From positions 65,799,585 through 65,863,584 of the forward strand of contig NC_060251.1 of the NCBI RefSeq assembly GCF_921293095.1: a DNA stretch of 64,000 nt, written 5' to 3'. Position 1 is the stretch's first letter; every line of letters starts with the position of its first letter. Below are positions 25,901 to 59,800 of the stretch, piece after piece. Under the pieces are notes generated by a model. It saw nothing but the letters and a program-made list of their open reading frames with translations, did not search any database and was not told where the DNA came from. This DNA comes from Ischnura elegans. Taxonomy: Eukaryota; Arthropoda; Insecta; Odonata; Coenagrionidae. Both the position numbers and the translations under genes were made by a program.

Positions 25901-28900
25901 AGGATCTGACAGAATCAGATGATTAAAGTGTGTATACTGTTGTTATGTATGAAGTATTTGAATGCTGCCCATGTTGTTGAAGCAGTCAGCATTACGTGCT
26001 ATAAGATCACTACTGTGATGGGTACTGAAGTCGTAACTGATGCTGAATTGTAATAGTTTTGTGCTTCAGCAATGTTTTTGTTCCAAAATAGGACTTATGC
26101 TTTGAGGTGTCCTCAGAATTTTATGTGTTTCTGATGATATATATTTCTTAAGGATGTAGTATTGAATGGTTTGTGTAATAGCTCTGCGATGTGATGTTTT
26201 TTTTTAGCTTTAGTTTGAAATCACATTCATTTTGTGATTTTTAAAGAATTTGGATTATAGCTACATCATGGGAAGTGAAAATTTTGTAATTTTTGGTGAG
26301 AAAAGTGAATATTTTTGGAAGGCGGCTGTAGTTAATGTGGACATTATTTTTCTTTTGGCCAAAACCTTTCATCTTAAAATTGAATCACTTGGACTATTTC
26401 AATTTGTTAGTGAAACATACTATCATGAAGGTGAACTTGGGTTGATTGGATTTGCTGGACATAAGCAGTAATTAGATGGGGCAGCCAATCAATAGCAATG
26501 AACATTTATTTCTAGCCATCAGAGAGGTGCCAATACATAGCTTCTAGAAGCTTTGGGCTCTTAGTCATGGTTGTAGTGAATTCCTTCCTGGTCTATCAAA
26601 TGCTTAAAATTATTAGCCATAATCATATTTCTCAATTAGATTATTACCTCATAACATATACTACCCAAGAATAAATGGAGTTTGACAATCGCATGTTTTT
26701 CTGCTACTTATCCCTGAATGATGCTGAAATTTTGCTGTTGCTGCTAATAGATAGGTCGACTTACAAAAAAAAGCACCTATATGGTGAGAGATCACTCACT
26801 CTCCCAAATTCTAGTTTCATAACCTGCAATTGAATGAATTACTCCACCAAAGGGCACTTGGTCATTTATATTCCATTTTCAAGATAGAGAGCTTTGGATG
26901 TTGGGAGATTGGAACGCATGTGCTGGACAAATGGATTACTCTTCTCTTTATATCTCAAACTGCCTCCTAATTGGCAACCATATCTCCTTTTCTCTTCTCT
27001 GCTCACCCCTGCTCTGCCCTCCACTTGCGACCGCCACCAGCAGTATCGGCAGGCCGTCAGTAAGACCCCTCCCCATCACCTGCAGCAGAAGCAGAGGTCA
27101 TTCCTCACGTTTGGCTTTGGCGCCGGCGGTAGTGGAGGCGGCACGGGTGGCAGCACAGCTGGGGTGATGGGCGTGGGGGTGGGCTCAGCCATGCTGGGCA
27201 GCGGTAGCACGCCTTCGACACGCCGGGAGTCCCACGTGAATGTGAACGTGACGCCGACATCACACGACCTTTCTTCGGACACGCCCGAAATACGGAAGTA
27301 CAAGAAGCGATTCAACTCCGAAATTTTGTGTGCTGCATTATGGGGTAAGCATTATCAAATTATGGCATGCTAAATGTTTCCTAAATGGTTACAGCAGTGT
27401 CTAACTCGTTGCTCAATAGTACCAAACCAGTGGTTATCTAAAGTTAAAGTATTTATGAAAAATAGTCCCTTTTTTTGACTTGTTGAAGTATAAGAAAAGA
27501 TAATGGTTAATTTTTCTGTTAGCATTTTTTTGGCCTTAGCAATTTTCTTGCCCGAAAATACAGTCCCAGCCATTGAGGAATTTCATGTATTTAACCCTTA
27601 TAATGCTGGAACGTTTTTATACGCTTTGCACGTTGACTGGCATTAACCCAAAATTTTTATTGCTACCTGGATATTTTGCACATAGACACTTTCTCTCACT
27701 TTAAGGACAGCTAAGAGGATTAATTTTACTTGCCCAGCCTTCGTGGCAAGGGGTGCTTCCTACACAGGGGGTCTTTTTTGCACTGGCTGGCAGCTACAAT
27801 CATAAACTGCAGACTAAGGGTTAAAGTTACTTTTTTGTTAGATTTTGTGCTCAAACTTTTTGAGCCTGTTTTTTTCAGTTTTATCACTGTTAGTGGAGTG
27901 ATATTAAATTATCAAAACTGCATTTTTTGACCAAATTACTGAATTGTTTTTTTTTTCTTCTGATTAAATAATTATTTTCTCTTACAGGTGTTAACTTGCT
28001 CATTGGCACAGAAAATGGTCTCATGTTATTGGACCGAAGTGGCCAGGGCAAGGTTTATCAGTTGATCTCTCGTCGCCGATTCCAACAGATGGAAGTACTG
28101 GAGGGTCAGAATATTTTGGTTACTATTTCAGGCAAGAAAAATAGAGTTCGTGTGTACTACCTCTCGTGGCTTAAGTCCAAGATTTTACGCACCGATGGGG
28201 TTAGTGATGTACGTATCACCATGGTTTTTTATCTCTTTATCTTATTTTGGTGGTATTTTTTATTCATCTCTTATATTTTAGTTATGCTCTATGCAATTGG
28301 TGAGACTTTCATATGTCCCTTGAGTTGTATTAAATCAAGATTGTAATCCATTGAAAGACTTAAAATTTCATTTTACTGTTATAAAGTAAAGATCAAGTCT
28401 TTCATGAAGTAAAGTCAAATAATATATTAATATGCCCATTTCTTCAAAAGATTAATTATCAGAAATATATTAATTTCAGCAGTGACACAACCAGCTACAG
28501 TCCACATATTAGTGAAAAAATGAAATCTGGTCATGGATGGTTTTTATAGTTCCTATATTTACGTATTACTCTCGATCTTTAATGCAGGAAATATGGAGTT
28601 TGATTTAAAAGAAAATGAAAAATACTTGTTTTTTCAGTTATATCTTCAGTTTTATGGTCAGGTGGTAGATTGTTTGGCTTGAAATAAAAAAAAGTCTGTT
28701 TGGAGGAGAGTTGGGTCACAATTGCCATGCGTCTCATCAAAGCCAATCTACCTTCCTTTTTACCATCAATGGTGTTTCATTTAGATTTTAATTACAGTAC
28801 ACTCCAGATTATCCGGGATAATGTTGGGGAGAGACGGCACGAATAATCAGGAAACATGGATAATTCAAACTTTCTCTTAAATGTCTTGTTCATAATCTAC

Positions 28901-31900
28901 GTAAAACAAACAATATATTATTATTTATGCAGTTACGTATTCTGTTATCTAAGAGTGCTTCCCGGACTCATTGAGAGCTTTCTTTGCCAGTTCGCAATCT
29001 TTTTAACGGCGATAATATGGTTGTACCTGTATTATTACTGCTCCATGTAACGCCTGGTTTCGAAAACCACACATCTGTGGCTAAGTGATCATGGATACTG
29101 AAAAGTGGTTAGCACGAATGCTTCAAAACCACTGCTCGACGTCGGAAACTACACTGTCGGGCACCACGCCACGTAGTCGCGTCTCGCAAAAGTTGCTGGG
29201 TTCCAACTGCTGTGTAACGTGTATTCGTGATCATGAAGCGAGGTCGCGCACTGCGAAGCTAGGAAAGCAGGGACAAGGTGCTCCCGTGAATGCAGCTAGT
29301 GCGTGATCGCTTCCGTTACACAAAGGGTATTCTAACGCAAATAATAAGCCCGGTGTATCCTAGAATTAATGCCGTAATTCCGATGATTTTTCATCCGATT
29401 TATTTTTAAAAAGATCACGGAAAAAATTGAGCAAGAGTGAAAATCATGCACGGATAATCCGCAACCCGGATTAACCGCAGCCGGATAATCGGGAGTCTGC
29501 TGTACTATAAATTTCTTGCTTAGCTTGCATATTGCAGTCATCTGTTGCTCCAACTTTATCCAATTCATCCTCTCGGGTGCTTTCTTTTATTTACTTTGCA
29601 GCAAGTGGAGAGGCGAAATGGGTGGATCAATGTTGGGGACTTGCAAGGTGCTGTTCATTTCCGAATCGTCAAGTATGAGCGCATTAAGTTCCTTGTGATT
29701 GCTTTGAGGGAAAGCATTGAAATATACGCTTGGGCACCTAAGCCTTATCATAAATTCATGGCCTTCAAGGTGAGTATTTTTGTTGTTACTGTTTATCTCT
29801 GTGGCATTAATAATTAAGATAGTTATTATATCTCTCATGAAAGCCCTGTTTGGGTTTCTTGTGCTACTGCAAAGTCTCCGACACCTGAGTGTGTAGTTTC
29901 TGTTTTGAGGCCAATTTTGTTCCTTATCTATGTTAACGATGTAGCCCATATTCTCTCAAATATTGTGTGTGTCCATCCTGCTTTTTATGCAAATGATTCT
30001 AATGTTCTTGTTTCATCAAGTGACTTAGACAATGTGTCCAATCAAGATAATTTAATCTCTTATAATCTAAGTAACTGGTGATCCAACAACCTCCTTGAAT
30101 AAATTATCCTAAAGGGATAAGTGTTGCAACTCTGAATTTAGAGTATTGCCTCCCTATCAAAGATTTCATACAAGTTCCCAATTAAAATCAGATTTGGAAT
30201 TGGTCCATTCTGATCTTGAACTTATGAAAACTTGTGTTATGTTCCATTACATTTCCATACATTACATATCAGTTCCTAACTGGTGCCTAGATGTGTTTTG
30301 AAGTAAATGATATTCGATACTGTCCAATTCCAGAACTGAAATTTAATTTTGAATGGGTTTTATGAATTCTTCACATCAATACCTCATGATTACCGTATTT
30401 GTCTGAATATTGTCCCCCCTTTTTTTCCAAAAATGCCCGTGGAAAAAGTAAAGGGGGAACTATATTCCTATGCATTTTTTTTAATTTTCTCAAAACTGAA
30501 ACATCAAAATTTGGGGGGGGGGGACTATACTCAAAGGGGGACAATATGCGGAGAAATACAGTATATGCAATTTGGATGCCTGAGTGCTTAATGACCTAAT
30601 TTTGTTTTTACACAGTCATTTGGCGACTTGAATCATCGCCCTCTTCTTGTGGATCTGACTGTTGAGGAAGGGACACGTCTCAAGGTCATTTATGGTTCAG
30701 CTGATGGATTTCATGCTGTAGACCTTGATTCAGCGTCTGTGTATGATGTTTACCTTCCAAAGCATGTAAGTATATCTTTTTTGCCTCTTACATAAATGCA
30801 AACCTATGCCTGAATGTAGAATACGTCAAAATAAGACTTCCCTAGAAATTGTTAACTGTGCATCAGTTTATTAATTGAGCTTACTTATTTGCATAAGGTT
30901 CCTCTATATCTATACCAAGCCTAAGTCTGTGATTTCTAGAATTCTTCTCTATCACTATGCGAAAGGGTTATTAAGTTAAGGGAAGTTAATCTCCTTTGAA
31001 GTGTTCGTGATGAATTTTTGTGATGTGGTAATTAATTCTTGTAGAATTATTTGTGGTAGAGTAAAAAATCTATTTTTCTTGATTTTAGTCCATATGTCAA
31101 TATCTCATTATCATCTACGAGATAGTTAATGCCTTGAATTTTCAAGTTAAATGAAGTATATTATTGCATGGTTGATATATGGAGTTATGACGTGTCTAAT
31201 GCTTGACTTATAAGCTAATATAATGTATTTCTTTGTTTTAATATGATTTTTTTATTTTGCAGACTCAGGGTCCAATTTCTCCTCACTGCATAGTAACACT
31301 GCCAAATTCAAATGGAATGCAACTACTTCTATGTTATGACAATGAAGGAGTTTATGTCAACACTTATGGAAAGGTGAGAACTATGTAATTTTCATTTAAA
31401 ACTTCACATACACATTACAGTTAGAACAAATAAGTTTTCATTCCATGGTTACCTCTGGACAGTTAAGGAAATCTGTGTAGTAGTTTTTAGTTTCCAGGGT
31501 GTCATGTTCAGGAAACCTACGATTACCTTGGTAGCAACAATTCCCTCTATGAAGGAATGTACCCGACTTGAAACATAATGCATACGATCAAAATAACACG
31601 TAATTACATGCGATATTTGAAAATTTAAATTCATTGAACTCAAAAACAAATGAGGGGTAATGAAAATAGTGTTATCCCTACATTATATTTTATGTGCTAG
31701 AATCTAAAACTTTCCCTTTGCCCACGATAGAGGATTCACTTCAATAAAATGTGTTGTTCTTTGAGAAAATTATTGTAAATATGTTTCACATACCCTTCTA
31801 TTTCTTGCCGATATCATGATGATGAACACTAATATCACTTATTTTTTCCTTAAATGGAAGCATCATGATATCATGATCATGATGCTTACCATTTAAGGAA

Positions 31901-33097
31901 AAAATAAGTGATATTAGTGTTAATTCCAGAGTGGTTTCTAGGAATTTATGTGGGCAACCTTCGCAGTGGCTCAACCGTCTTACTTTCGTTCTTTTGAAGC
32001 TGTTCATCATCACTGCTGCTAGAAATATATTATTTGTGAGGCAAATCCAAAAGTGTCTTATGACGTTTGAATTTTTTAAAGACTGATAAAAAAGTATTAT
32101 TTTTTTCTTATTCTTCTTTATTGGTGAACATACCATCCCGTGATAATCAAAAAATACTTCTAGTTTTTAAAGGAACATTGGTTTGATTTTAAAATTCCTG
32201 ATTTTTTTTGTCGTTATCCATTCTTAATCTATTAGTCATTACCTGTAATTAATTGTAATCCCTACTTTTTCTAGTCAACTTTTTTTTCAACCTTTGTCAA
32301 CTCCTTTTTGTGATAATAGAAAATGTCAAAACCCATTTATTGAGCAAGAAATTACTTCAGAAGTTTTAGGATAAGAAAAGTATGAAAGGGATTTATTTTT
32401 ATATTAAGTGTTTGATAATGAAAATTAATACCATTTTGATGAATATTTCAGGTCTCAAAAAATATAGTCCTTCAGTGGGGAGAAATGCCAACCTCTGTGG
32501 CTTACATTGGCACTGGGCAGATAATGGGCTGGGGAAACAAAGCAATTGAAATCCGAAGTGTTGAAACAGGACACTTGGATGGAGTGTTTATGCACAAGAA
32601 AGCTCAGCGGCTTAAATTTCTCTGTGAACGCAATGACAAGGTTGGTATTATGTATTTATGACCACTTTGAAAATTAATGAGGCCCTCTTAATTTGGAGCT
32701 AAAAATACAAAGCGAGTGTAAAATTTAACATAAAATTAGAATTAGTATCATAGAATTCTGATTTAAAGGAATTAAAGCACCTGAAGCTGACGGGAAATTG
32801 ATGCTTGAGACATGCTAATGGAGTTGATTTATAATAGACTGAAATAAAAGTATAATTTATCTATCAATCACATTCATCCATGCCAATATCTTCTTTTTCT
32901 TAGCTGCTTTCTTTTTCATTTTCTGAATGCACTTCGATATCTTGCATGAGGATACCTTATTTGTTTCTTGAAATGTAATCAGAAAGTAATGGGGCTTGTT
33001 TTATCTCACTCAGGTATTCTTTTCATCAGCAAAGGGAGGCTCTTCATGTCAGATATATTTCATGACCCTTAACAAGCCAGGCATGGCCAACTGGTGA
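1926..33097 (+). CDS. msn: misshapen / TNIK-MINK-MAP4K4-type Ste20 kinase, C-terminal part (12 exons, 5' incomplete)
   Basis: Germinal-centre-kinase IV protein kinase acting upstream of JNK and in actin, adhesion and dorsal-closure signalling (family knowledge). Seen here: exons 1926-1969, 4425-4513, 6222-6998, 16124-16240, 20362-20418, 27041-27344, 27988-28208, 29602-29769, 30616-30765, 31263-31373, 32452-32640 and 33014-33097. All have GT-AG borders and compatible phases, giving 770 codons including the stop. The N-terminal part here is low-complexity linker with the family motif [13 protein letters not shown]. The C-terminal ~400 residues are a complete citron-homology (CNH) domain, with signatures [56 protein letters not shown] and [13 protein letters not shown], ending MANW. 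The kinase and coiled-coil parts must lie left of base 1. The insect-type [10 protein letters not shown] junction favours the msn orthologue over a vertebrate paralogue name. Very confident for the CNH exons, slightly less for the two first small exons. Confidence 0.93.
1970..4424 (+). other. msn intron
   Basis: 2.45-kb AT-rich intron. Apart from the MITE at 3554-3727 and a G/C-rich patch at about 4040-4240 that looks repeat-derived, I see nothing in it. Confidence 0.6.
3554..3727. mobile_element. 174-bp MITE with TA duplication, pogo/Tigger-like termini
   Basis: The left end CAGTGAAACCTTGATTTTAC and the right end (read in reverse) CAGTGAAACCTCTATTTTAC are nearly identical inverted repeats, flanked by TA on both sides (3552-3553 and 3728-3729). 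The internal sequence is AT-rich and non-coding. It sits in the msn intron between 1969 and 4425. The terminal sequence and TA target are those of Tc1/mariner-pogo superfamily elements. Confidence 0.8.
4425..4513 (+). CDS. msn: msn exon ([13 protein letters not shown] linker motif)
   Basis: 89-bp exon, acceptor cacttcag, donor gtgagt. It starts with two bases completing a split Gly codon and ends in phase 0. It encodes a short Ser/Gly stretch, then [20 protein letters not shown], the Pro-rich SH3-type and acidic patch typical of misshapen-family linkers. Confidence 0.88.
4514..6221 (+). other. msn intron
   Basis: AT-rich intron of 1.7 kb. I see no conserved coding sequence, mobile-element termini or RNA gene in it. 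Confidence 0.5.
6222..6998 (+). CDS. msn: msn large linker exon (259 codons, Arg/Ser-rich)
   Basis: 777-bp exon, acceptor ttctgcctacag, donor gttagt, phase 0 at both ends. It is strikingly GC-rich against the AT-rich introns. It opens with a Gln-rich amphipathic piece ([18 protein letters not shown], then an acidic [10 protein letters not shown]). The rest is a long disordered Arg/Gly/Ser/Pro region ending in a run of serines ([11 protein letters not shown]). It contains several basic patches and possible phosphorylation sites but no folded domain. The phase-0 borders mean it could be skipped without a frameshift. Confidence 0.82.
7695..7978. mobile_element. 284-bp hAT-type MITE with 8-bp target duplication
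   Basis: Begins CAGTGGTGTAGCC and ends GGCATAGC in reverse sense (tatgccactg), forming short imperfect terminal inverted repeats. It is flanked on both sides by the identical octamer CTTGCAAT (7687-7694 and 7979-7986). An 8-bp duplication is the hAT hallmark. Non-coding and non-autonomous. Confidence 0.85.
13829..13994. repeat. 74-bp inverted repeat, 18-bp spacer
   Basis: Left arm 13829-13902 and right arm 13921-13994 are reverse complements over 74 bases with one mismatch that I can see (cagtttcg against cggtttcg). Both strands therefore give nearly the same short open frame. RNA from either strand would fold into a long hairpin. No flanking duplication found. Confidence 0.9.
16124..16240 (+). 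CDS. msn: msn linker exon ([10 protein letters not shown])
   Basis: 117 bp, 39 codons, phase 0 at both ends. The acceptor follows a good pyrimidine tract (gttcctctcactccggtag); the donor is gtaatg. It encodes an Arg/Gly start, then [17 protein letters not shown], which reads directly into the next exon [10 protein letters not shown]. Other frames through this stretch are open over longer distances but do not join neighbouring exons. I chose this frame from phase and from the resemblance to arthropod misshapen linkers. Confidence 0.8.
16241..20361 (+). other. msn intron
   Basis: 4.1 kb of AT-rich sequence in which I see no exon, RNA gene or defined element. Confidence 0.5.
20362..20418 (+). 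CDS. msn: msn small linker exon (19 codons)
   Basis: 57 bp between a tgctttacag acceptor and a gtgaga donor, phase 0 at both ends. It encodes [19 protein letters not shown], a Ser/Pro-rich continuation of the linker. Symmetric phase makes it another possible cassette exon. Confidence 0.82.
22236..22429. repeat. Inverted pair of tRNA-headed SINE-like copies
   Basis: Arms of about 87-89 bases (22236-22323 and 22341-22429) are near-perfect reverse complements around a 17-base spacer. Each arm contains the tRNA-like head, so the two copies face away from a shared centre. The left copy is truncated at its 3' side. Confidence 0.88.
22368..22441 (+). repeat. tRNA-derived SINE head (tRNA-like, probably not a gene)
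   Basis: 74-nt tRNA-shaped sequence with an A-box-like TAGCTTAACTGG and a B-box-like GGTTCGAATCG. Matching acceptor ends cgcctc/aaggcg show one mismatch in the stem. The anticodon loop CCGGAAA lacks the invariant T33, and the T-stem pairs poorly. The same head occurs at 35746-35819, followed by a similar T-rich tail, which argues for a dispersed SINE family. Confidence 0.7.
22875..23508. mobile_element. 634-bp non-autonomous DNA element, 4-bp target duplication
   Basis: Left end TGTAACGGTTCGAACCG, right end in reverse TGTAACGGTACGGATCG; the first 9 bases match perfectly and then similarity is partial. Flanked by GTAT on both sides (22871-22874 and 23509-23512). Much more GC-rich than the surrounding intron, with a short GA microsatellite near 23143. 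A 161-codon open frame within it has no recognised domain. Confidence 0.65.
27041..27344 (+). CDS. msn: msn exon: end of linker and start of CNH region
   Basis: 304-bp exon after a long pyrimidine tract, donor gtaagc. It encodes a Gln-rich start, a Gly-rich stretch ([18 protein letters not shown]) and then the invariant [18 protein letters not shown] and CAALWG that lead into the CNH domain. The acceptor is a tandem cagcag, so the first Gln may be optional. Confidence 0.93.
27345..27987 (+). other. msn intron
   Basis: 643-bp AT-rich intron; nothing else seen. Confidence 0.6.
27988..28208 (+). CDS. msn: msn CNH exon ([10 protein letters not shown] ... LRTDG)
   Basis: 221 bp, acceptor tctcttacag, ending phase 0. 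It encodes [20 protein letters not shown] and the [12 protein letters not shown] and [15 protein letters not shown] segments. I place the donor at gtacgt (28209), which adds GVSD and gives the arthropod-type [10 protein letters not shown] junction. A second in-phase donor gttagt nine bases earlier (28200) is also usable. Confidence 0.93.
28209..29601 (+). other. msn intron
   Basis: 1.4-kb intron, half of it occupied by the pogo-like element at 28795-29502. Confidence 0.6.
28795..29502. mobile_element. 708-bp pogo/Tigger-like non-autonomous element
   Basis: Left end CAGTACACTCCAGATTATCC and right end (reverse) CAGCAGACTCCCGATTATCC are terminal inverted repeats of about 22 bp, flanked by TA. 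Further gataat motifs lie inside both ends. A 73-codon open frame at 29085-29306 shows no transposase motif. Confidence 0.85.
29602..29769 (+). CDS. msn: msn CNH exon (QVERRNGW ... YHKFMAFK)
   Basis: 168 bp, 56 codons, phase 0, acceptor ttactttgcag, donor gtgagt. Encodes [33 protein letters not shown] and [15 protein letters not shown], core CNH propeller strands. Confidence 0.97.
29770..30615 (+). other. msn intron
   Basis: Contains a 168-bp MITE (30394-30561) that ends only 54 bases before the next exon. A degraded fragment around 29880-30100 may be a retroelement remnant; its frames are broken and I do not assign it. Confidence 0.5.
30394..30561. mobile_element. 168-bp MITE, TA-flanked, inside msn intron
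   Basis: Terminal inverted repeats of about 27 bp, CCGTATTTGTCTGAATATTG against reverse CTGTATTTCTCCGCATATTG, each followed by tccccc. Flanked by TA. A long G run (about 30512-30524) lies inside. Confidence 0.8.
30616..30765 (+). CDS. msn: msn CNH exon (SFGDL ... VYLPKH)
   Basis: 150 bp, 50 codons, phase 0, acceptor tttttacacag, donor gtaagt. Encodes [20 protein letters not shown] and [20 protein letters not shown], canonical for the family. Confidence 0.97.
30766..31262 (+). other. msn intron
   Basis: 497-bp AT-rich intron, nothing else seen. Confidence 0.6.
31263..31373 (+). CDS. msn: msn CNH exon ([10 protein letters not shown] ... GVYVNTYGK)
   Basis: 111 bp, 37 codons, phase 0, acceptor tattttgcag, donor gtgaga. 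Encodes the CNH strand [17 protein letters not shown]. Confidence 0.96.
31374..32451 (+). other. msn intron with a long hairpin
   Basis: 1.08-kb intron. Its only recognisable structure is the inverted repeat at 31825-31921. Confidence 0.6.
31825..31921. repeat. 45/46-bp inverted repeat, 6-base loop
   Basis: Left arm 31825-31869 pairs with right arm 31876-31921 with one unpaired base. The arms begin aacactaatatcacttattt and end at a catgatatcatgatcatg core that is itself palindromic. The transcript would form a nearly perfect 45-bp hairpin inside the msn intron. Confidence 0.88.
32452..32640 (+). CDS. msn: msn CNH exon ([13 protein letters not shown] ... CERNDK)
   Basis: 189 bp, 63 codons, phase 0, acceptor aatatttcag, donor gttggt. 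Encodes [40 protein letters not shown] and [12 protein letters not shown], near-identical to family members. Confidence 0.97.
32641..33013 (+). other. msn last intron
   Basis: 373-bp AT-rich intron, nothing else seen. Confidence 0.6.
33014..33097 (+). CDS. msn: msn last coding exon and stop
   Basis: Acceptor ttatctcactcag. 27 codons ([20 protein letters not shown], then KPGMANW) and TGA at 33095-33097. This is the normal C-terminus of the family. Confidence 0.96.
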   Translation, partial: VFFSSAKGGSSCQIYFMTLNKPGMANW

Positions 33098-36639: not shown

Positions 36640-37140
36640 TATCATAAAAAATAATGAGTCTACTGCCCATCTTTTTGTCAAACCTCCTACTATCACCTTC
36701 TAACGATCAGCAAACCTCTCTGATTTATTCCGCTCGACAAACCCCTTACAAAAGTCAACCACTACACCCAATAGTCCTTTGCCCTGTGGTTGTCCTAGAT
36801 GTAAGACCTTCCCAATTTTCACCCCTCCTTCTATCCCCAGTCATCTCGTCCCTTGTCTACCACCCTTTGGCCTTTTGTACTTCCAAGAATGTAGTTTACC
36901 TCATTCAATGTCAACACTGTCCCTCCTTTTATATAGGTAAATCCTCGACTCCCCTTAACCTAACAATCAACAACCACAGGGAATCATGCACTTCTCCCCA
37001 CTTTGCGTTCCTCCCGGTGGCAAAACATGCAGCAGCTCATCAACGTCAATTCAATGATTCTTACATTGCTTCATTTTTGGCCTCCCTTCCCCCCACAGAC
37101 CACCCACTTAAACTCAATTCCATCGAATTAACTTATATAT
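36640..37140 (+). pseudogene. GIY-YIG endonuclease fragment of a retroelement (Penelope-type)
   Basis: Open frame on the + strand with KNVVYLIQCQHCPSFYIGKS at about 36892-36951 (the GIY-YIG core). A Cys pair follows, then an RESC/H-rich stretch, and near the end LKLNSIELTYI, which carries the conserved Glu position. This matches the nuclease that Penelope-like elements carry behind their reverse transcriptase. No reverse transcriptase is attached on this strand, and the frame is cut at its 3' end by a MITE at 37141. I see no start or partner and treat it as a dead fragment. Confidence 0.6.
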
Positions 37141-37365
37141 GCATGGGCTTATCCAGAGAGAGCCTGGAGGGGGCAGCTGCCCCCATCCCCACGGAAGCAA
37201 AAATTGAAGATGACTTTAGGGAAAATAATACTTTTTCATTTGAAAGAACTGTTACAGTTTCCTTAAAATGTTGATTTCATTCACCTTTTCCATGCTTAAA
37301 TCTTACCTACAACTTGAATAACCATGGCTTACCCTCCTCTTGTTTTGATCCTGGGTATGCCCTTG
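37141..37365. mobile_element. hAT-like MITE truncating the GIY-YIG fragment
   Basis: Left end gcatgggcttatccag and reverse right end caagggcatacccaggatc are imperfect inverted repeats. The flanks tatatat on each side suggest a 7-8 bp duplication, although the repetitive target makes this uncertain. Confidence 0.5.
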
Positions 37366-38824: not shown

Positions 38825-39847
38825 TATTCTGTTGTCGAATCCATTTCCCTGTAGAATGGCCTCTAGTTTCCACCATTCTTCGGCTAAGTTGTTTTGGTCA
38901 CTTATTGTGTGGGAGGTGTATCAGTTGGTGTTAACCACTCCATTTATTTGGGCTGGGTGATGATGAGATAAAGCGTGCTGGTACCAATTTGTTTCTGTTG
39001 GTTTTCGATAGAATGCGTGTCCTAATGTTCCATCATGGTCCCATCCTTCTTTTCCATGAGAACATACAAGAATGGAAGTTTTCCGTCTTCCTCCACCTCC
39101 ACAGTAAACTTTATGTTTCCGTTGATACCGTTCAAGTAAGTGTTAAATTCTTGCAGCTTTCCTTGCCGTTCGTCCAAATTATAAAGATATCGTCCATAAT
39201 ATATATCTCACTCAAATAAGTTTGTGGGCAGCGCTCTGGATTGGTGTTTCTTCTATGTGTTCCTTAAATATTTTTGCAATTGCTGGGGAGAAAGGGAAAC
39301 CCATCGCTTCTCCAGACGTATTTATGTTGATAAAAATTATTCCTACACCAGAAGAAAGTAGGTACTCTTGAGGCATATCACTGCCAGCTTGGCAATGTTT
39401 TCTCCAAATCTGTCTTTTATGACATTTACTGCCTCGTCGCAAGGAATATTTGTGAAGAGCGATGTTACATTTAAGTGGATTAGGATGTCTTCTTTTTTGA
39501 CCTTGATGCCGCTAATAATCTGAAGAAAATGTCGAGTGTGTCTCATGCATGATTTCGCCTCTTCTGCTGCGGGCTGTAAAATTGGTGCCAGGTATTTCGA
39601 TAATTTATATATTGGCGAGTCTATGGCGCTGACAATGGCCCTAAGGGGTACTCCTTTCTTATGAATTTTTAGCGGACCGCTCAAGTAAAAATTTCTCCCT
39701 TGCAACTTGACTGAAACTGGGCTGGAACTACCTTGAAACTCACTGCCTTGCTTCTATGCTGAAACTGCATTGAAATTGAAACAAACCAGTGGAGTTTGGG
39801 AGAGGGATGGCAGTGCAGTAGCAGTGCGATTAAGAACTCCAGCTACT

Positions 39848-41200: not shown

Positions 41201-41447
41201 ACAAACGTCGAAGTACCGGGAAAATATTTATGCCATCAATCTTTTCATGCTAAAACCCACGCTCACCTCGCTCCTAGCAACTTGAGAGAAATAACGGCAA
41301 CCGACAGCATGACGCGCGGGAAAAGGTATACGTGTTGCCAAAAGCTAAATAATAAAAAAATACATTGCCGCTGGAAACAGGGGTCGCGTATATGTCCGGT
41401 AGAAGGGTTCCGTATGTTGGCAAATCTTACGATGGGTAGCACACGCG

Positions 41448-41800
41448 CAGCAAGGGAGAAGCAGTTCAAATTCATGAGGGAGAGGGGATACGCAAATGCT
41501 GCTGCAGCTCTGTGGCAGGGCAGTTAAGACATTCGGCGAGAGAGATTCAGTGGAGTTATTAAGTTGGCCTGGCCTTTGAGCCCACTGTCCAGCTCAGTGC
41601 CAGTAGAGCTCATGTGCAGCAAGGGAGAAGCATTTCAAATCCATGAGGGAGAGGGGATACCCAATGCTGCCGCAGCTCTGTGGCAAGGCAGTAAAGACAT
41701 GCGGCAAGAGAGACGCAGTGGTGTCATAAATTCGGCCTGGCCTGAGCCTATTGTCCAGTTCAGTATCAGTGGGGCACATGTGCAGCAAGGGAGAAGCAGT
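41448..41800 (+). repeat. Tandem repeat of 166-169 bp, two copies plus a partial
   Basis: Units begin cagcaagggagaagc at 41448, 41617 and 41783. The first two share the gctgcagctctgtggcagggcag-type block and the ggcctggcct block. Imperfect, and inside the right part of the 2300-bp element. Confidence 0.8.
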
Positions 41801-41980
41801 TCAAATTCAATGGACTTGCAAGGGAGAATGGCATCAGAGTTTCAGTTGAGTGCTCTTTTTCTTGTTGAGGACAAGGCAGTGCAGTGCAGTGCCAAGGTTG
41901 TTTCAAGGCAGTTTGAGCGCATTCAGTGGAGTTTCAGCCCAGAATCAGCTCTGTTTCAAGGGAGAAATTTTTACTTGAGA

Positions 41981-42776: not shown

Positions 42777-44098
42777 ATGCAAGAATCTTTGCGCTTGCCA
42801 AAGGGACGAGGCAGAGGGTTGAATCGTGGAGGCGGTCATTTATCGCAATGTCAGTCCCGAGTTCCGGCGATTCCTCCCTTTCCATTCCAACACCAGCCAT
42901 CATTTGGAACTGGAAAAGCACCGACGACAGCTCTAAAGCCTTTAACAATGGGAAGAGGGATGTGCAACATAGAAACTCCGGGCCCGTATGACCCCGTGCT
43001 ACCAGGGCAGTGCTTCTCAGTGCCGTTGGGGTCTCGGGGGCGCGATCCTGTACCTCGAAACGTGAATGGCCTTGACCCACGGGCCTCAAATGGCCCTACT
43101 TCTCTACATAGTTTTTACGGCCCTTCTCCCCAAGGTTTCATTGGCCGTGCTCCATATGACTCGGTTGGTCCTTCTCCACGGGGCATCAGTGGCCCACCTC
43201 CCCGGGGCATCAGTGGCCCTCCTCCTGGGGGCATCAGCGACCCTTCCAAACATGGCTCGTGGAGTCCATCTCCTCAAGGATTCAAAGTTCCTGCCCCACG
43301 GTTGGGATTCAGTGGCCCTGCTCCACGAGGCAACAGTGGCCCTTCTCCCTTAAGTTTCAAGGTTCCGTCTCCCGAAGACTTCAGCCTCCCTCCTCCACGA
43401 AGTAACGGTGGCCCTTCAAGATCCAAGGTTTCGTCTCCCGAAGACTTAAGAGTCCCTCGTCCAGGAGACAACAGTGGCCCTTCTCCCTTAAGCTTCAAGG
43501 TTCCGTCTCCCGAAGACTTAAGCGTCCCTTCTCCACGAGTCAGTAGAGGAGGCCCTGCTAACCAAAGTCCCCGTGGCCCTTTTCTCCAAGGTTTCGGTGG
43601 CCCTGCCCCAAAAAAAGTAAGTGGCCCCTCTCCCAAAGTTTTCAGTGGTCCTTCTCCCCAACGCTTTAGTCGTTCTTCATCCTCAGGATTCCATGGCTCT
43701 GCTCCTCAGAGCTCATCAAGCACTCCTCAAGTATGCTTCTTGGCATTGGCCGATCCTGTACCTCGGGGAAGAGGTATCGGTGTCGGAGATTGCGTCCCTC
43801 GTTTCCATGAATCAGAAAGGGCAGTAATGAACCCGAACCTAAGTCATGGCATTCCATCTCTACCTGAACCACGTCCGAATTCTCTGACTCAAGTGGAATG
43901 GGATGTTTTCATTCGGAATGGTCGGCCGTCTCATAAAAATGTGTGTGCTGTTTTCTGTTGCTGTACGTTTGGAGAGGGTAATAGCGTCCAGAGGACATTT
44001 AGTTTTTGCTGCGATGCAAAATCTCGTTGGGAGCATGCGGAAAAGAAAGCAATTGAGCAACTTTTAATGCTGGAAAATGGAAGTGGTCGTGAATTGAG
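42777..44098 (+). CDS. Deaminase exon: RG/Pro-rich repeats plus HAE half of active site
   Basis: 1322 bases from ATG to donor gtaaga, leaving two bases of a split Arg codon. It carries the whole repeat region and the first deaminase strands (NVCAVFCCCTFGEGN, TFSFCCDAKSRWEHAEKKAI). An out-of-frame ATG at 42758 opens a 77-codon frame overlapping the start. Confidence 0.82.
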
Positions 44099-47000
44099 GT
44101 AAGAAATCTCCCAAAAGTACACACTCAGCTCCGCTTCCATTTACATTTTAATAAAATTCTAGAATGGTTCCCACTGATGCACCTGAACATGTAAGGACTT
44201 GAATTCCATATGTATTTATGCTATGGAATTTAAAAAATTTACCAATTTCGTGTTCAAGTACAAATTGACCCTTAATTTCTCAAGTATCTTGACTGTTAAT
44301 ATTTATCGATTTTACATTTGCATGGTCTACTTGACTTAAAGAAATACATTCAGCTTTTTATAATACTTGAAGCTGTAGGAAGCTTTGATCTCACAAATGC
44401 TTCTTTTAAATTTTTTAGGCATGTGGTCTTCATCAGCAGCCGCTCTCCTTGCATACCTTGTGCCAAAGACATGATTACATTTGTCAAGTCCAGAGGATTA
44501 TCAATGAACTTGTATTTTACTGCTCTCCAAAAGGTCATCAATCCAGTTAAGAGTGGTGTTCAGCTACTGGCAGACTTTGGAATGCCAATGCAAATTGCTG
44601 ATAAGCACATCTGGTCTTACCTCACTTCTCTTCTTGCAGTTAGCAATGGAAAGCCACGAACTGCATTATCAGTAAGTTAAATTTTGGACTCCCTAGATCA
44701 CACCATCTAATGTTTTGTGGGGTGAAATGGGGTTCTTGCAAATACTTTGTCTTCTCTCTAATAATAATGCACAGTTTTAGTTTTGTAATAAAAATTAAGT
44801 GGCATGCAGTTTATTTATTTATTTAAGGAGTTGCTCACATACAGCATTTCTAAGAATTTATAGTGACACAGTAAAAAATATGAAATTTTAACATAAAAAA
44901 TCTGAACCAAGAGTACAAGCATAAGATAGTGAAAAATAAACTAGAGGGCACGAGGAAAGGGAGGTGGAGAGGGAGGTTTATTTATTAGCCGAGGAATGGG
45001 ACATGGCTAGTTTGACAAATGAGTTTCTAAGGGCAGAAAAAATTGATCAATATTGTCTAGTAATGAATTGAGCAGGGAGCAAAGGCAGCGTTGGAGTGAG
45101 CGCTTAACGAGGGATAGGCGTATGAAGTAAGGAATGTGTATGAGTGGATCGGCAAGGCACTCTGAAATTAATGGATGAAAGCAAATCAGGACAATCAATG
45201 TGTGAATTTAGAATATTGTAATAAGTTTTATATCTGTTTTAATCCTTTGTTGGCAGAGATCAGTGATTGATAGAGAAGATAGGAGTGAGCTGGTGGATAT
45301 GTCACGTAAGTGGGGAACTCTGTGTCGTACGATTCTGGCGAAGAAGCTGGTTATACTGTCAAGAGAGGTGAGGTTAGAAGAAGCTGCGATGGACCATATG
45401 GTAGAGCAATATCCGATGACTGGAAGGATAAATGCTGAGAAGTATGATTTTAGAGCTGTGGGATTGGTTATTTCTGTGTAGCGGTAGAGGAGACCTAAAA
45501 GTGACATAGATTTGCTCTTGATTAAATAAGTGTTCCGAGAAGTTAAGTTTATTGTCAGTTATGATGCCTAAATCCTTCACATCCGAAACACATTGAAGAG
45601 GCTTGGAATTAATTGAATATTGAAAAGTAATTGGGGATTTTTTAAGAGAAATCAAAAGGGAATTGCATTTACTGAAATTTAAGTGTAGGTTCCAAGTATT
45701 TCACCAATTTGCCGTCAAGTTTAAAGAATTTTGATGGACTTTGCAGTCCGAGGTAGTTTGAATTTGATTAAATAGTTTACAGTCGTTCGCATAAAAAAGA
45801 GTATGTGACTGGGATGGAGGCAAAGGTGTGGCTAGGTCATCGATGAATAGGCTAAATAAATATGGCCCCAGGACACTACCTTGAGGAACACATGATGTTA
45901 CCGGGGACCAGTAAGAGGAGGTGCCAGAAAGTATAACTCTTTGGAATCTATTCGTAAGAAAGGATTTGACGAGGTTGAGAAAGGTTCCGTGCACGTTGAA
46001 TCGTTGACTAAGCTTGTGAAAGAGGAGGGTATGGTCGAGTGAATCGAAGGCTCTGGAGAAATCAAGGAATATGGTGTCGAGTTGAGAATTTTTTGCTATT
46101 GAGTTGACAGCATGGTGATGGAATACAGATAGATTAGTAAGACAGGAGCAATTAGGAAGGAAACCATGCTGATTATTCGATAGGCTAGGGGATGTAAAGT
46201 AAAGAAATCTGTTGAGTATAATCCTCTCAGCAATAGAGGATAGGATTGGAAGTAAGGAAATTGGGCGGTAAATAATATCTTCACATTTAGGACCAGTTTT
46301 ATGGATTGGTATAATGTTCGCCATTTTCCACTGATGTGGAAAGACACTAAGCGTGAAGCAGCGATTTAACAGAAGACTCATAGGAATCGCGAGGGAGGAG
46401 GTGCAGTTATGTATAAAGATAGGACTGAGGCCATCAGGGCCTGGTGAACGATGGAGGGGTATTTTTGAGAGAAAGTGAAATACTTCCTGTGGATCGGTCT
46501 CAATGCGGGAAAGACAGTGCGTACAGCAAGATGTGAGGGAGTGGTCAGGGAAAGAAGGGACATTGGATGCAGGCATTAGGCGATCTGAAAAGAATTTAGC
46601 AAGGAAAGGCTTCAGAGGGCGGGGTGGAACCCTGCAATGTTTCTTGGAGCTGGAAAAGTTGTAAATGACGTCAAGGGACTCATGGTCTGAGTCGAAGATG
46701 TTTCTGCTGGGGGTTGCCTCTGGGGGAGTGGTGGAAAGAAGGAAGTCCAACGTTGCCGTGTTTTGCGTCCATTCATTGTAGAACTGGGAAAGATGAAGGG
46801 GGTTGATGAAATTTTGGAGAAAGTACTCATCATGGGCGTCCAACAGAGACCCACTCGTTGGAAACTCCCAATGCATTGAGAGATTAAAGTCCCCAAAAAG
46901 GATAATGGGACCAAGAGTAATGACACTCATCACAGAGTCAAGGCATTTTTCTAAGACGGAAAGATCACTGGCAGGAGGACGATAGAAACAGCCCACATAA

Positions 47001-49689
47001 GTTTTTATAGGTTGCAAATGTTTATTAGAGGGTAGAGAGACTTTGGTCCACACGATTTCAAAGTCAGTCTCTAGGTCCAAGCGACGTTTAGAGAGAAATT
47101 TATTATTGATAGCAACAAGCACTCCACCCCCTCTGGAGAGCCTATCTTTGCGATGTATGCCATGAGTGGTTGTGAATGATATTTCTCCGTCCTGAACACT
47201 AGGGTTCATCCAAGTTTCCGTAAGCGTGATTATATTAAGTTTGGAAAGCTCATGGGCATGGGAGTCACAGGTTGATAATTTGTTCTTAACCCTTTCGCTG
47301 CTGTTCAATCTCCGAAAACCTTCTCCTCACATGCGGCGAAAAGGTTAAAATGCCTTTCGTGTGACCATGGAGCAGGTACTACCAGGATGGGCATGGTACA
47401 CCCTCCGAAGGGTGGCTAATCCAGGACCCTATCCTCGACGAAGTCATCCACGCAACTCCCCGAAAAGTGACCGCTCTGACTTCATTTTGAAAATCTATCA
47501 ATCAATCCGATCATAGAAAAATGATTGTTTTCATCGCACTCCTGCCGATCAAGCGATCAAGTATGTCTTTGAACCGTGTTTCTGCGATGAAAAATAACGA
47601 TTTTGTTAACTTTGCAAAAAAGCGTGGCTGCGGACCACCGGAAAATGGCCATTTTATCAAAGTCAACAAAATCGTTATTTTTCATCGCAGAAACACGATT
47701 CAAAGACGTACTTGATCACTTGATCGGCAGTAGTGCAATGAAAACAATCATTTTGTGATGATCGGATTGATTGATAGATTTTCAAATTGCAGTCAGAGCG
47801 GTCACTTTTCCGGAGGTAGGGCCCCTGCTGGTAGGGCTGATGAGACGGTCCTGCGTGGGTGAGTTCGTCGAGGAAAGGGTCGTGGATTAGTGGGTCCCTT
47901 CGAAGTGCTTCGGCGAAAGTGCTGACCGCATGGCAGGGAGGAAGAAAAAGTACGTCCACCGCAGTCTGCCATGCGGACATACTAGGTACGTCCACAGCAG
48001 TGAAAGGGTTAATGCTTCTCACATTTTGGTAATAAAAATGCACGTTAAGGTCAGAGGAAGGGCCTGGGTTTAGTTGTACGTCACCGGAAAGGAGGAAAAG
48101 AAGCAAGATAGCGGCTTCAAGTCGAGGTCACGGTCTGGCGGTTGAGGATCGAGGGTGTCGCCGGGACCTCGGCGATAGAGCTGTGGGGCAATGGAGGCTG
48201 ATGAGGGATAGACTGCACGATGCAAACAAGGAAAAAAGAAATCTTCGTTCACTGAACATTTCAGAAGGAACTGGGTGCGCAAATGATGTGGGGGGCAGAC
48301 ATGGTGGAATCGCACAAACACAAAGGGTAAAATTCACTGGGAATAGAACACAAACCACAAAGAAAGCAAACTTTAACGGAGCATGAGATGCGCGTGTCCT
48401 CCCGCTGGTGGCTATCTTAAATGAGAAGTTATGATAAAGTATAGGACCACAGCTAGATAGTTTATTTAACTGATGAACAGACTTCATTTGCAATAGAGTC
48501 ATATAAGAGCTCCCATAGTATTAAGTGTTTATTCCACTTCTGACTTCCTCTATGTTTCAGCCAGGTTTGGCCCCTCTCAAGATGCTAGTCCTTTCTCTTC
48601 TGCTCTGCACTTCTCTCTCTTTCTTATGATCCTCATATTCTTTGTATCTTCTTTCAAATCCTCCATCATCCATCATTTCTCTTTTGAACAATATTTCAAA
48701 ATCTCAGCTTCTTAGGCATCCTTTCTTTCAATGTGTGACCTAGCTAAGCTAACCAACTAAATATCGTGCAATGTTTGTGAAAACCTATTGGGTTTTAGAT
48801 TTGGAAATTTCCAAATTTGCTACCACTGCTATTACTGTTTACTGCTATTACTGCTGTTTCCATTCACGCTGGCCACCACACCATCAAATCTGAAACCCTA
48901 GCTACCAGAAACTACCCAAACTCTGCTTTGTGGAGGAAACACTGCATCTGTTGGATGGGATGTTAATTTGTGGTCCCCTAGGTGCCTTTCATTAAAAGCA
49001 TGCCTATGCCGAAACCAGGTTTCTCTCCATCCTTCCTTAAGTTAGCTAGTAGCCATAATAAGCTAAACTGTTGGTCAACCTCCTCCAATACCTACCTTTC
49101 TATACATATTTTACATTGCCTCAATTTATATTATGCATCAATGGGCTACTTATCCTTGTTTAAACCATCTTTTCTAATATGCTTAGAGGGTGTTCATTTT
49201 CAGCAGAGATGGTCCCTGTTTTTGCCTTGTATATCTTACTCACTATTCAAATGGTACATATTCAAAGATCATTGAGGACCTGAATTTTTATCTTGCCTAC
49301 TTTCATTATTAATCATTACCAGGGACTTAGGTTCTTCACTTAAATGATATAATAGATCGTTAAAATAATAATTAATTTTCATTCCTCAATTTGGCTTTGA
49401 TAAGGTAGAATTTTACTATTGAAATTCTAATTTTATAATATCATGATTGTTGCGGTGAATTGCTATGTTTTTTGTCAGTCTGAAAGCCTGAATTTTTACC
49501 TTGTGTCTTTTAAAGGATGGAAGGGAGGTGAATGTGACTTGTCGCAAAGCTTGGGATGTCACATGGTCTCATCAGCTGACAGCAGTCTTGCATCGTGATC
49601 ATAATAATGTGCTTGATAGCAAGAGCCTCCTCGCCAAGTTCGAGGATGTTCGGGTGGCAATGATGGCTAAGGGGCAGGCAAATTCATAG
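42777..49689 (+). CDS. AID/APOBEC-like cytidine deaminase with Pro/Gly-rich repetitive N-terminus (3 exons)
   Basis: Three exons (42777-44098, 44419-44671, 49516-49689) join in frame to 582 residues. Residues 1-45 are RG-rich (KGRGRGLNRGGGH). About 97-310 are imperfect GPSPRGxSGP and FKVPSPED repeats. About 385-515 are a zinc deaminase: H420-A421-E422 in WEHAEKKAIEQLL, then 30 residues later S450-P451-C452-I453-P454-C455. Next come LNLYFTAL-like (MNLYFTALQ) and GVQLLADFGMP, then a helix with W (KHIWSYLTSLLA). Spacing and the SPCxxC(A) form match AID/APOBEC rather than free-nucleoside deaminases. All zinc ligands and the catalytic Glu are present, so it should be active. There is no signal peptide or membrane segment; nuclear or cytoplasmic location is inferred. 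The substrate (DNA or RNA) is unknown. Start: first in-frame ATG after TGA at 42771. Confident of the deaminase fold, fairly confident of the AID/APOBEC affinity. Confidence 0.8.
43066..43700 (+). repeat. Pro/Gly/Ser-rich coding repeat array
   Basis: Imperfect units based on ggccctyctccncg.ggc.tcagt encode GPSPRGISGP-like peptides. A longer unit of about 139 bases, NSGPSPLSFKVPSPED, occurs twice (starting near 43331 and 43470) with a degenerate third copy (SRSKVSSPEDLRV) between. Confidence 0.85.
44099..44418 (+). other. Deaminase intron 1
   Basis: 320-bp AT-rich intron between the HAE and PCxxC exons; nothing else seen. Confidence 0.7.
44419..44671 (+). CDS. Deaminase exon: SPCIPC half of active site
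   Basis: 253 bp, acceptor tttaaattttttag, donor gtaagt, ending phase 0. One leading base completes Arg441. Encodes HVVFISSRSPCIPCAKDMIT, VKSRGLSMNLYFTALQKVI, and SGVQLLADFGMPMQIADKHI followed by WSYLTSLLA: the second zinc-binding half and the last strands and helices of the deaminase fold. Confidence 0.85.
45701..47308 (-). pseudogene. LINE endonuclease-reverse transcriptase reading frame
   Basis: 535-codon open stretch. The first eight residues come from the inserted MITE and the real LINE sequence starts at KNKLS. The endonuclease occupies about residues 8-215, the reverse transcriptase about 270-535. It ends at a stop soon after the catalytic box (NSLNLTANW). In the catalytic FADD the second Asp is kept but the first is Asn (YAND), so it should be inactive. 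The rest of the protein continues in other frames at 45655-45374 and 45507-45208. Confidence 0.88.
47290..48008. mobile_element. 719-bp TTAA-flanked foldback MITE (piggyBac-like) inside the LINE
   Basis: Ends CCCTTTCGCTGCTGT and (reverse) CCCTTTCACTGCTGT, with TTAA at both borders (47286-47289 and 48009-48012), as for piggyBac elements. Its middle is a long imperfect inverted repeat (about 47460-47610 and 47665-47815), so most of it can fold back. Removing it restores the LINE frame NVRSI-KNKLS. Confidence 0.85.
48059..48085 (-). other. 2A-like ribosome-skipping motif in the LINE
   Basis: Encodes GDVQLNPGP, preceded by a Leu-rich run (LEAAILLLFLLS), the classic context of 2A-like peptides (D-V/I-E-x-N-P-G-P). 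Glu is replaced by Gln. After it comes NVHFYYQNVRSI, the usual start of a CR1/L2 endonuclease. Confidence 0.75.
49516..49689 (+). CDS. Deaminase C-terminal exon
   Basis: Acceptor cttttaaag (weak pyrimidine tract), phase 0, 57 codons and TAG. Encodes DGREVNVTCRKAWDVTWSHQ and a helical tail (SKSLLAKFEDVRVAMMAKGQ). No known domain. The codon pattern looks coding and the exon joins in phase, but its assignment to this gene rests on phase and position only. Confidence 0.68.
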   Translation, partial: DGREVNVTCRKAWDVTWSHQLTAVLHRDHNNVLDSKSLLAKFEDVRVAMMAKGQANS

Positions 49690-56859: not shown

Positions 56860-59800
56860 CTGAAAGATGAATGCGAATATCTATCAATCTATTAAAGACG
56901 AAGAGGAATACCTACTGAATGCAGCAACATAAAATGGCAGCATGCAGTTGGGAAAAATCAAAGCCTTCCAGATGGCAATAAAATGGAATACAATTTAAAA
57001 AAAGTGTTCAACATTTTCAAGTATATTTGACCAAAACATTGAATCATGGTATTGGTGGCAATCAAATACATAAAAATATGGTTACATGGTTTTATTAGCT
57101 TGATGAATTGCAACTAGGGGAAAAATGTCTCAACAATGTTTGTGCTGCCACTAATATTTCGTGAGACAGTCAGTTTCCTTTGTGATGGCATGATTTTCTT
57201 CAGCCAATTTCTGATGGGGTAAATTCAAACACATTGCAATCTTTCTATTTCCACCATGGGCTTCAATTGAGTAGGACCTAATGAGACTGTGAAAGAAGGT
57301 ATTGGGTATATGCTTGGTACTGGGAAGGAGAAAAAATATGGGTAATTTTCATAATGAGAGTTAAATAGAATGTTTCAAAGGCATTGCATATGAATTATCT
57401 CATGCAACCCCATTGTGGTGACCAGCAAGAATGACACTCCGGGGTAGGCAAAGTGTGGATATGCTGTCTTCAACATACATTCTTCTGGTGAAAAGAGTGA
57501 CTCAAACTTTTTGATTTTACCTCATTAGAATTTGGCCTAAGAATAAAATGCCATCAGAGAGGACAACAATTTTCTCACCTAGGATTAACAGAGGCACAAA
57601 CTTTGCTTGGATACTTTTACCCCCATAGTACATGTACTCAATGAAGAGCCTTGGCCCTGACGAAATTTATTTCATAATGGAGAGGAATGTTTTTTTGGGA
57701 AGGAGCAGTATTTTAAATTTGTTTTCTAAATATGCCATCTACCTTTAAACCAGAAATATCATTACATTGGGAGGTCTTTTACAGAACACATTTAGCTAAA
57801 AACATTCTTTTTCCGTAAGGGTTTGATAGCTAGGAGTTCTATTTTTTTCATACATCATTGATTATTGCAATCAAGGAGACTGCATAGAGCAGGCCCTATA
57901 GAAGGTTGATTTCTATTGCCACTTCAGTCGCATTTCAATCGGTTTTCAAAAATGTCCATAGCATGGTGATTAATGAAATGCAAAGGAAAGCTGTGCACTT
58001 TGTAATAAAACTGCTACGTGTGTAAAGAAAGCGTTACAAAGATGCTTAACGAATTAGGATGGGAGACTAGAAGGCTGGTATCCTAACATCGCCTATGCAT
58101 ATTGAGGTGGCTTATGGGATAATATGTAGATTTACCCTTTTACACTGTTTTGCATTGCTTATTGTACAGTTAATTTTACAATAGGTTTCATCTTGAGGGG
58201 CAAAAACCTTAGACCTGGAGATGATTTCATAACATTGACATTTGCATCTAAATTATGCATTCAGCGGGACAAACCAATGTGTTTAGTTCTGCCCAACTAA
58301 CGAGTGGTCCATGGGTTCCGATTCCACAGAAATTTTTGAGAAATGGTCTTCAGCGATCTCCCTCCTAATGCCCAACTCCTCTCTCAGTGAACCTCCCGAG
58401 AAAAATTATACACAAAAATTCACCTTCCAAGACACTCCTGTCCTCCCACGGTATATCTTTGATGAGCTCCTTGGCAGCTTCTGCAGAGTGGCATCTTATA
58501 TATGCTGCACTTGCAGCATCTTTTACATCAATATACGCGACGGAGTCACTCTTAGGGAGATTCTTGACTTCTTCCTGTTTTGAAGAAGGAATCCATTTGA
58601 TCAAAAATATCATTGTACATAAAATTATAAATAATATCAATAATTTAGATTGGGTGGATGCATAACAATAATACTATAACAATGGTAACCGATGGGAAAC
58701 TTGAGAAATTATTCATACCAGTGATAGGATTATTGACTGATGCTGCTAACACAATGGTAATTTCTCTCTATTACTAAAACTATTAACGGAATGCTTCGAA
58801 GTATGAAGCAGTCACATAAACATAATCTTGATCCATCTCTATTTGGACAGTGAAGAATAGGAAGCAATTGCTATCACCATTTTTTTTTACATTGCCAAAA
58901 AATCAGTACACAAAACGAATGTACAGAGAGATCTATTTGGATTGAGCCTAACTAAAAAGGTGGCAAGTCACAAAACATCAGCAGGAATTAAAGGTGCATT
59001 TTAGTTTGGAAAATTGGCTATATGGCAGTTTTGGGACTCAATACCTCAGAATTTAAACATTATGTCTCATTCCATATTTTTAGATGCATATTATTTATGC
59101 TCTTCATTTATTTGATGTTCACACAACAACCCACATTGATGAATCAGTTCCCAAACGATCAAGAATTTGAATAGCATTAACTTAAGACTGAGTGGGACTG
59201 CAATGACTTGGGTACTCTTGTCCCTTGTCTTTAAGTGGCAGGCAGGTTGAACAGTATCAAAGTAAAGATAGTAAATTTATGGTAGCCTGAATGATGGGGA
59301 ATGGGTGGGGAGCTTCATCAGGTGACCTGTTATTTAGACCTTTCTGAGTCCTGCCAACCCAATGTTTATTCTGTTTGTCACTTGCAGACAGCACACAAGA
59401 GCACCATAGTTTAATTATGAATGGTCACCCATCCAGGCTAACAATTAGTCTAGGTCCAAGATTCCTTAACTCTGGTGGTCCAATGGAAACTGGTGTGTTA
59501 ATATGGTGAGGCCCTAGCCCAAGAGGGTTCTAATTGATTACGCTCCAGTAGAAAACCACAATAACCATTCAGTCAACGTCCCTTGATTGAATTTTGATTC
59601 AGCAAACAAAATATTTTAGGAATAAATACATATTAAATTGCATGGAATATCCAGTTACTTTTCATTTGTAACCCTCTGTAATTTGAAGCAAATGTAGAGA
59701 ATTTTGGCTATCAATCAAAGTGAAACAAGCTGAAGTGCATACCTTAAACTTCCGTGCAGCCTCCAGTGGTTCTTTGAAAAGGATCTTTACAATGACACCA

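Follow-up and report, generated by a model that had tools for sequence, protein, structure and literature searches.

Do insects possess deaminases of the AID/APOBEC family? The question is raised by a gene of three exons at 42777-49689 (+) in a 64,000-nt stretch of the genome of the damselfly Ischnura elegans (C6:65799585-65863584), which is called the window below and in which all positions are counted unless a contig is named. The DNA- and RNA-editing enzymes of this family are familiar from vertebrate immunity. To our knowledge, insects are usually treated as lacking the family, and it has been little studied in them. A first-pass annotation, made from the letters of the window, had read the locus as an arthropod AID/APOBEC-like deaminase gene, and its arthropod origin is confirmed by the source, a damselfly. 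Sequence comparison gives good support for placing the encoded protein in the AID/APOBEC family, and the locus is very probably a host-encoded gene of that family. The parts of the gene are as follows.

Exon 1, 42777..44098 (+): residues 1-440 and two bases of codon 441; a Pro/Ser/Gly-rich N-terminal region, then the start of the putative deaminase domain including W418-E-H420-A-E422; the best whole-protein Pfam matches begin at residues 387 and 395.
Intron 1, 44099..44418 (+): 320 bp, phase 2, GT-AG, acceptor pyrimidine fraction 0.8; lies between the HxE and PCxxC motifs.
Exon 2, 44419..44671 (+): HVVFISSRSPCIPCAKDM with the zinc cysteines C452 and C455; the stretches LYFTALQ, MPMQIA and IWSYL.
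Intron 2, 44672..49515 (+): 4,844 bp, phase 0, GT-AG; contains a minus-strand retrotransposon without long terminal repeats (non-LTR).
Exon 3, 49516..49689 (+): 57 residues and the stop, including CRKAWDVTWSHQLTAVLH, proposed as the last helix of the domain; frame continuous with exon 2.

The joined reading frame has 582 codons plus a stop and 0 internal stops. Splice donors read GAG|GTAAGA for intron 1 and TCA|GTAAGT for intron 2, and the acceptors are TTTTTTAG|GC and TTTTAAAG|GA, respectively. With these GT-AG borders, matching phases and the open frame, the three-exon structure with host-style introns that the first-pass annotation had described was recovered. Exon 1 lies in a stop-free frame of 442 codons in a window with a GC content of 37.7%, and its frame stayed open in 0 of 2000 mononucleotide shuffles. 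The ATG at 42777 is the first one past an in-frame stop, its context is weak by inspection and further upstream exons are possible; the start codon of the gene is uncertain.

Profile searches were made with the curated cut-offs of Pfam-A. The C-terminal 231 residues of the protein exceeded the cut-offs of four AID/APOBEC profiles, NAD1 (37.5 bits, cut-off 27), SNAD4 (36.5, cut-off 27), APOBEC2 (34.5, cut-off 26.8) and APOBEC_N (32.2, cut-off 25), and stayed under those of APOBEC3 (26.5, cut-off 27), NAD2 (20.7, cut-off 27) and dCMP_cyt_deam_1 (18.7, cut-off 25). The full-length protein gave the same four profiles above cut-off in the same order (34.7, 33.7, 31.7 and 29.4 bits). Exon 2 alone came just below the cut-offs (SNAD4 26.8, NAD1 25.6 and APOBEC_N 24.7 bits), and the part of the domain in exon 1 (89 residues) alone had no Pfam match at E up to 1. 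The AID/APOBEC-like identity proposed at first sight is thus borne out by four curated profiles. A chance resemblance to AID/APOBEC in a protein from some other deaminase group (CDA, dCMP deaminase or ADAT) might account for the 18.7 bits of dCMP_cyt_deam_1 and for the 14.9 bits (E 0.031) of a PHROG dCMP deaminase profile; however, we rejected another deaminase clade because dCMP_cyt_deam_1 is under its cut-off and the four AID/APOBEC profiles are over theirs, and the probability left to such a chance likeness is minute.

Moreover, a phmmer search of PDB sequences (E up to 10) returned 28 rows, in which 27 were APOBEC or AID chains (one of these a fusion). Eight of the 28 rows had E < 0.01, and the best was APOBEC3G, with an E-value of 4.4e-6 to which two stretches contribute, one of 17.6 and one of 10.2 bits, each weak singly. 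Aligned with human AID, the domain scored 105, whereas shuffles averaged 52 and 0 of 500 scored as high; when exon 3 was left out, the score was 86 and 2 of 500 shuffles were as high.

The zinc motif reads H420-A-E422, 28 residues, P451-C452-I-P-C455. Its His420, Glu422, Cys452 and Cys455 are all at the positions reported by the first-pass annotation, with a Glu-to-Cys gap of 30, and the zinc site that it had called intact is indeed complete. The HAE-x28-PCxxC of the damselfly protein lies within the range of the catalytic motif of the family, H[AVS]E-x(24-36)-PCxxC, as given in PMC5956068.

The deaminase could also have been gained from a bacterial endosymbiont: AID/APOBEC-like deaminase toxins are on record for Wolbachia, Orientia and Rickettsia, and PMC3482391 does describe such toxin domains in arthropod endosymbionts. 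Such a gain is nevertheless very improbable here: the introns are host-like, the top profiles bear animal-clade names, NCBIfam gives no match, and prokaryote genomes yielded 10 stretches with 0 relatives confirmed by tblastn, in a scan that reaches close relatives only. Viral contigs scanned for relatives yielded 1 pattern stretch, of which 0 were confirmed. The gene lies on a chromosome, downstream of a kinase gene.

Within the family, no clade stands out, as the scores of NAD1, SNAD4, APOBEC2 and APOBEC_N differ by only about 5 bits. NAD1 (PF18778, novel AID/APOBEC-like deaminase clade 1) has the top score, yet SNAD4 (PF18750) is only 1 bit lower. According to PMC8201067, NAD1 is an uncharacterised clade known from ray-finned fishes, coelacanth, amphibians, lizards and marsupials; the damselfly gene differs in coming from an insect and in having a long N-terminal tail. 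SNADs have a signal peptide, and SNAD4 is reported solely from sponges (PMC11004436), whereas the damselfly protein has no signal peptide visible by inspection. The AIDL proteins of sea urchin and brachiopod resemble the vertebrate enzymes in their enzymatic activity and are inducible by pathogen challenge (PMC5956068). These proteins share the catalytic motif with the damselfly protein and are likewise from invertebrates. However, SpAIDL1 and SpAIDL4a are members of a gene family and only 193 and 194 residues long, whereas the damselfly protein, at 582 residues, has no clear paralogue. Aplysia has been annotated with three APOBEC3-like proteins (PMC9334734).

The first-pass annotation had further called such genes rare or poorly characterised in arthropods. 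This may be a fair description, although Krishnan et al. (PNAS, 2018) are said to have already included arthropods in their list of animals that carry AID/APOBEC-like deaminases. Arthropod members are not mentioned in the available parts of PMC13428168, PMC6466128, PMC6651903, PMC10354150 and PMC8075586, and no paper in the literature collection searched combines APOBEC with Odonata. The predicted damselfly gene is an insect member, with an unusual tail, added to an already known family. If the gene is intact in a damselfly whose genome is assembled to chromosome level, one could ask directly whether base mutation serves insects as an immune weapon, and also when other insect orders lost the AID/APOBEC family.

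What would such a protein do? Most likely it is a cytidine deaminase that works inside the cell and has a Pro/Ser/Gly-rich tail of 350 residues, and we favour the view that it is catalytically active. For fold, catalysis, substrate, antiviral role and tail role we infer the following. A single catalytic domain (about residues 385-582) would stand behind the long N-terminal region, with a zinc ion held by H420, C452 and C455 and with E422 as proton shuttle, and would convert cytosine to uracil in single-stranded DNA or RNA. The target would most plausibly be viral or other foreign nucleic acid, and the tail might target the enzyme, either to this substrate or to RNA-protein particles. The enzyme is expected to act inside the cell because no signal peptide is visible: the N-terminus, MQESLRLPKGRGRGLNRGGGH, has no hydrophobic stretch or signal peptide by inspection only, with the true start uncertain. 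We hold the antiviral role with less confidence than catalysis, and a part as mutator or antiviral editor, as the first-pass annotation had suggested, is put forward here as a suggestion as well.

Residues 1-350 contain 66 Pro, 53 Ser and 50 Gly, and this N-terminal region of about 350 residues, rich in Pro, Ser, Gly and Arg, is probably disordered. It includes repeats.

Imperfect tandem repeats in exon 1, 43166..43678 (+): 24-bp and 66/72-bp units, Tandem Repeats Finder rows 43166-43244, 43316-43539 and 43632-43678; encode units such as GPSPRGISGP.

We know of no characterised member with this architecture of a deaminase and a long repeat-built tail. A bolder and rather doubtful idea is that insects, perhaps odonates or early insects, have a separate lineage of intracellular AID/APOBEC enzymes, to which this gene would belong. 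There, a deaminase fused to a repeat-built Pro/Ser/Gly-rich tail, which would guide it to its nucleic-acid target, would serve as a mutagenic antiviral defence.

Several results weigh against an active AID/APOBEC deaminase encoded by all three exons, and they concern the zinc site, exon 3, the scores in the genome and the retroelements. First, Arg450 (SSRSPC) stands where the SWSPC motif of vertebrate AID/APOBEC3 has Trp. This Trp is not universal in the wider family, and APOBEC2 has SSSPC.

Second, exon 3 is weakly supported by the comparisons made. It gives no gain in profile score (NAD1 38.1 bits without and 37.5 bits with exon 3), has no Pfam match alone at E up to 1, and is only weakly similar to the C-terminal half (FKAWEGL region) of human AID, 26 of 500 shuffles being equally good. 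Together with the weak start context, the lack of added score would suit a pseudogene, or a gene model with a wrong 5′ or 3′ end; the long open frame, the motif-complete domain and the clean splice signals speak against either, and we regard both as improbable.

Third, the whole genome (1,722,721,009 bases, 110 contigs) was searched exon by exon with three AID/APOBEC profiles, and although this gene, by its exon 2, ranked first with each of them, its scores were 24.3 bits for NAD1 (3 rows) and 25.6 bits for SNAD4 (7 rows), both under the cut-offs because single exons are scored, and 25.0 bits for APOBEC_N (2 rows), which is at the cut-off.

Fourth, when an APOBEC3-like enzyme edits minus-strand cDNA, G-to-A changes appear on the plus strand of retroelement copies, and such changes were counted in two groups of elements, one of them represented in the gene itself.

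Non-LTR retrotransposon (LINE) remnant in intron 2, 45211..48127 (-): non-coding for the gene; endonuclease and reverse transcriptase, RVT_1 81.7 bits, Exo_endo_phos_2 23.6 bits (cut-off 27.4, not reached).

This LINE had at least 58 match rows in the genome including the copy in the window, corresponding to 30 loci (40 scored of 1231 candidates). We compared 17 distinct copies of its 3′ stretch and 14 of its 5′ stretch, with singletons pooled over the copies. Singletons of the 3′ stretch comprised 27 G>A and 46 C>T, leaning away from the APOBEC direction; those of the 5′ stretch comprised 26 G>A and 21 C>T, so the two stretches lean oppositely. Several related LINE copies, with an identity of about 92-94% where they match, have about 460 bp between the two matched stretches that are absent from the window copy.

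The second group was the BEL/Pao retrotransposons of Ischnura elegans, for which 150 of 554 candidates were scored and in which some open frames have 1,734 or 1,740 codons. For the sample, the 60 of these 150 places with the highest scores each gave a piece of about 1.9 kb; badly mutated copies are under-represented in it because the copies were chosen by profile score. A partner was available for 59 pieces, and for 46 of these the nearest neighbour was >98% identical; the elements look numerous and young. Nearest-neighbour totals over the 59 pieces were 194 A-for-G, 169 G-for-A, 157 T-for-C and 172 C-for-T, roughly balanced with a slight A-for-G lean. After 7 pieces with fewer than three close partners had been dropped, 53 copies were polarised, and these had no clear G>A excess (88 G>A vs 73 C>T, a slight G>A lean, binomial p 0.24). 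Copies with at least 4 such changes numbered 16, of which 9 leaned G>A and 6 leaned C>T, and none of them had p < 0.06 in either direction. The most lopsided were L062 (0 G>A, 5 C>T, p 0.063), L091 (6 and 1, p 0.069) and L104 (11 and 5, p 0.14), uncorrected for the 16 tests. The next-base preference of the BEL/Pao G>A changes was not marked, A following in 36 of 88 against a background of 35%. The plus-strand G-to-A excess that marks an APOBEC3-like hypermutator was thus not seen in the sampled LINE and BEL/Pao copies. This speaks against strong germline hypermutation of the sampled elements and has no bearing on exogenous viruses or RNA.

Loss of deaminase activity has been argued for APOBEC2 and APOBEC4, and the damselfly protein might similarly be a metazoan protein with the AID/APOBEC fold but without nucleic-acid deaminase activity, now a scaffold or an RNA-binding regulator. 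The place of APOBEC2 among the top profiles (34.5 bits), the replacement of the SWSPC Trp by Arg and the retroelement footprint absent from the sampled copies would all agree with this, but the zinc and proton-shuttle residues are all kept and 582 codons are open. We therefore consider an inactive scaffold unlikely, while giving it serious weight, and retain an active deaminase as the preferred reading.

The gene is apparently single-copy. A whole-genome protein search matched the gene's own three exons only (6 of 6 candidates scored), and neither this search nor those with the NAD1, SNAD4 and APOBEC_N profiles found a clear second family member in the genome, although a divergent or APOBEC4-like gene could escape because only three profiles were used, exon by exon. 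Two candidates for a second gene were examined. The weak NAD1 and SNAD4 match at C1:10160327 was rejected, its translated match being without the zinc motif and with three stops. The match at C1:115490531, which reads VIYGSWSPCIDC, had genome-wide E-values of 0.66 (NAD1), 0.35 (SNAD4) and 1.27 (APOBEC_N); the HxE motif is absent from the three frames of that strand over the 3.1-kb locus, and no second gene is claimed there. The open frame of 53 residues at this place, C1:115490531-115490656 (-), reads PKAVIYGSWSPCIDCTDQITSLF, which comes near the AID/APOBEC SWSPC motif, and its peptide scored 22.9 bits with SNAD4 (cut-off 27); the stretch could be a chance match, or else the relic of a gene or one exon of a second gene.

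Two neighbours of the gene were recognised in the window.

Upstream neighbour, 27287..33094 (+): exons of a MAP4K4/misshapen-like kinase with CNH domain; CNH 71.4 and 33 bits, exons placed by tblastn with protein fragments.
Downstream neighbour, 58368..58673 (-): frame with an RRM/xRRM piece; RRM_3 19.2 bits (cut-off 22.9) and xRRM 14.8 bits (cut-off 23.7), both below.

The downstream frame is perhaps part of a LARP7-like gene, and the frame at 59665-60036 beside it had no profile match. Between the kinase exons and the gene, there is a GIY-YIG-like frame at 36648-37271 (+), with 18.9 bits (below the cut-off of 22.6), and a frame at 39346-39753 (-) that resembles reverse transcriptase by eye; both may be fragments of Penelope-like elements. 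At 41438-41806, shortly before exon 1, a 168-bp unit is repeated 2.2 times in an open frame with repeated AAAALWQGS.

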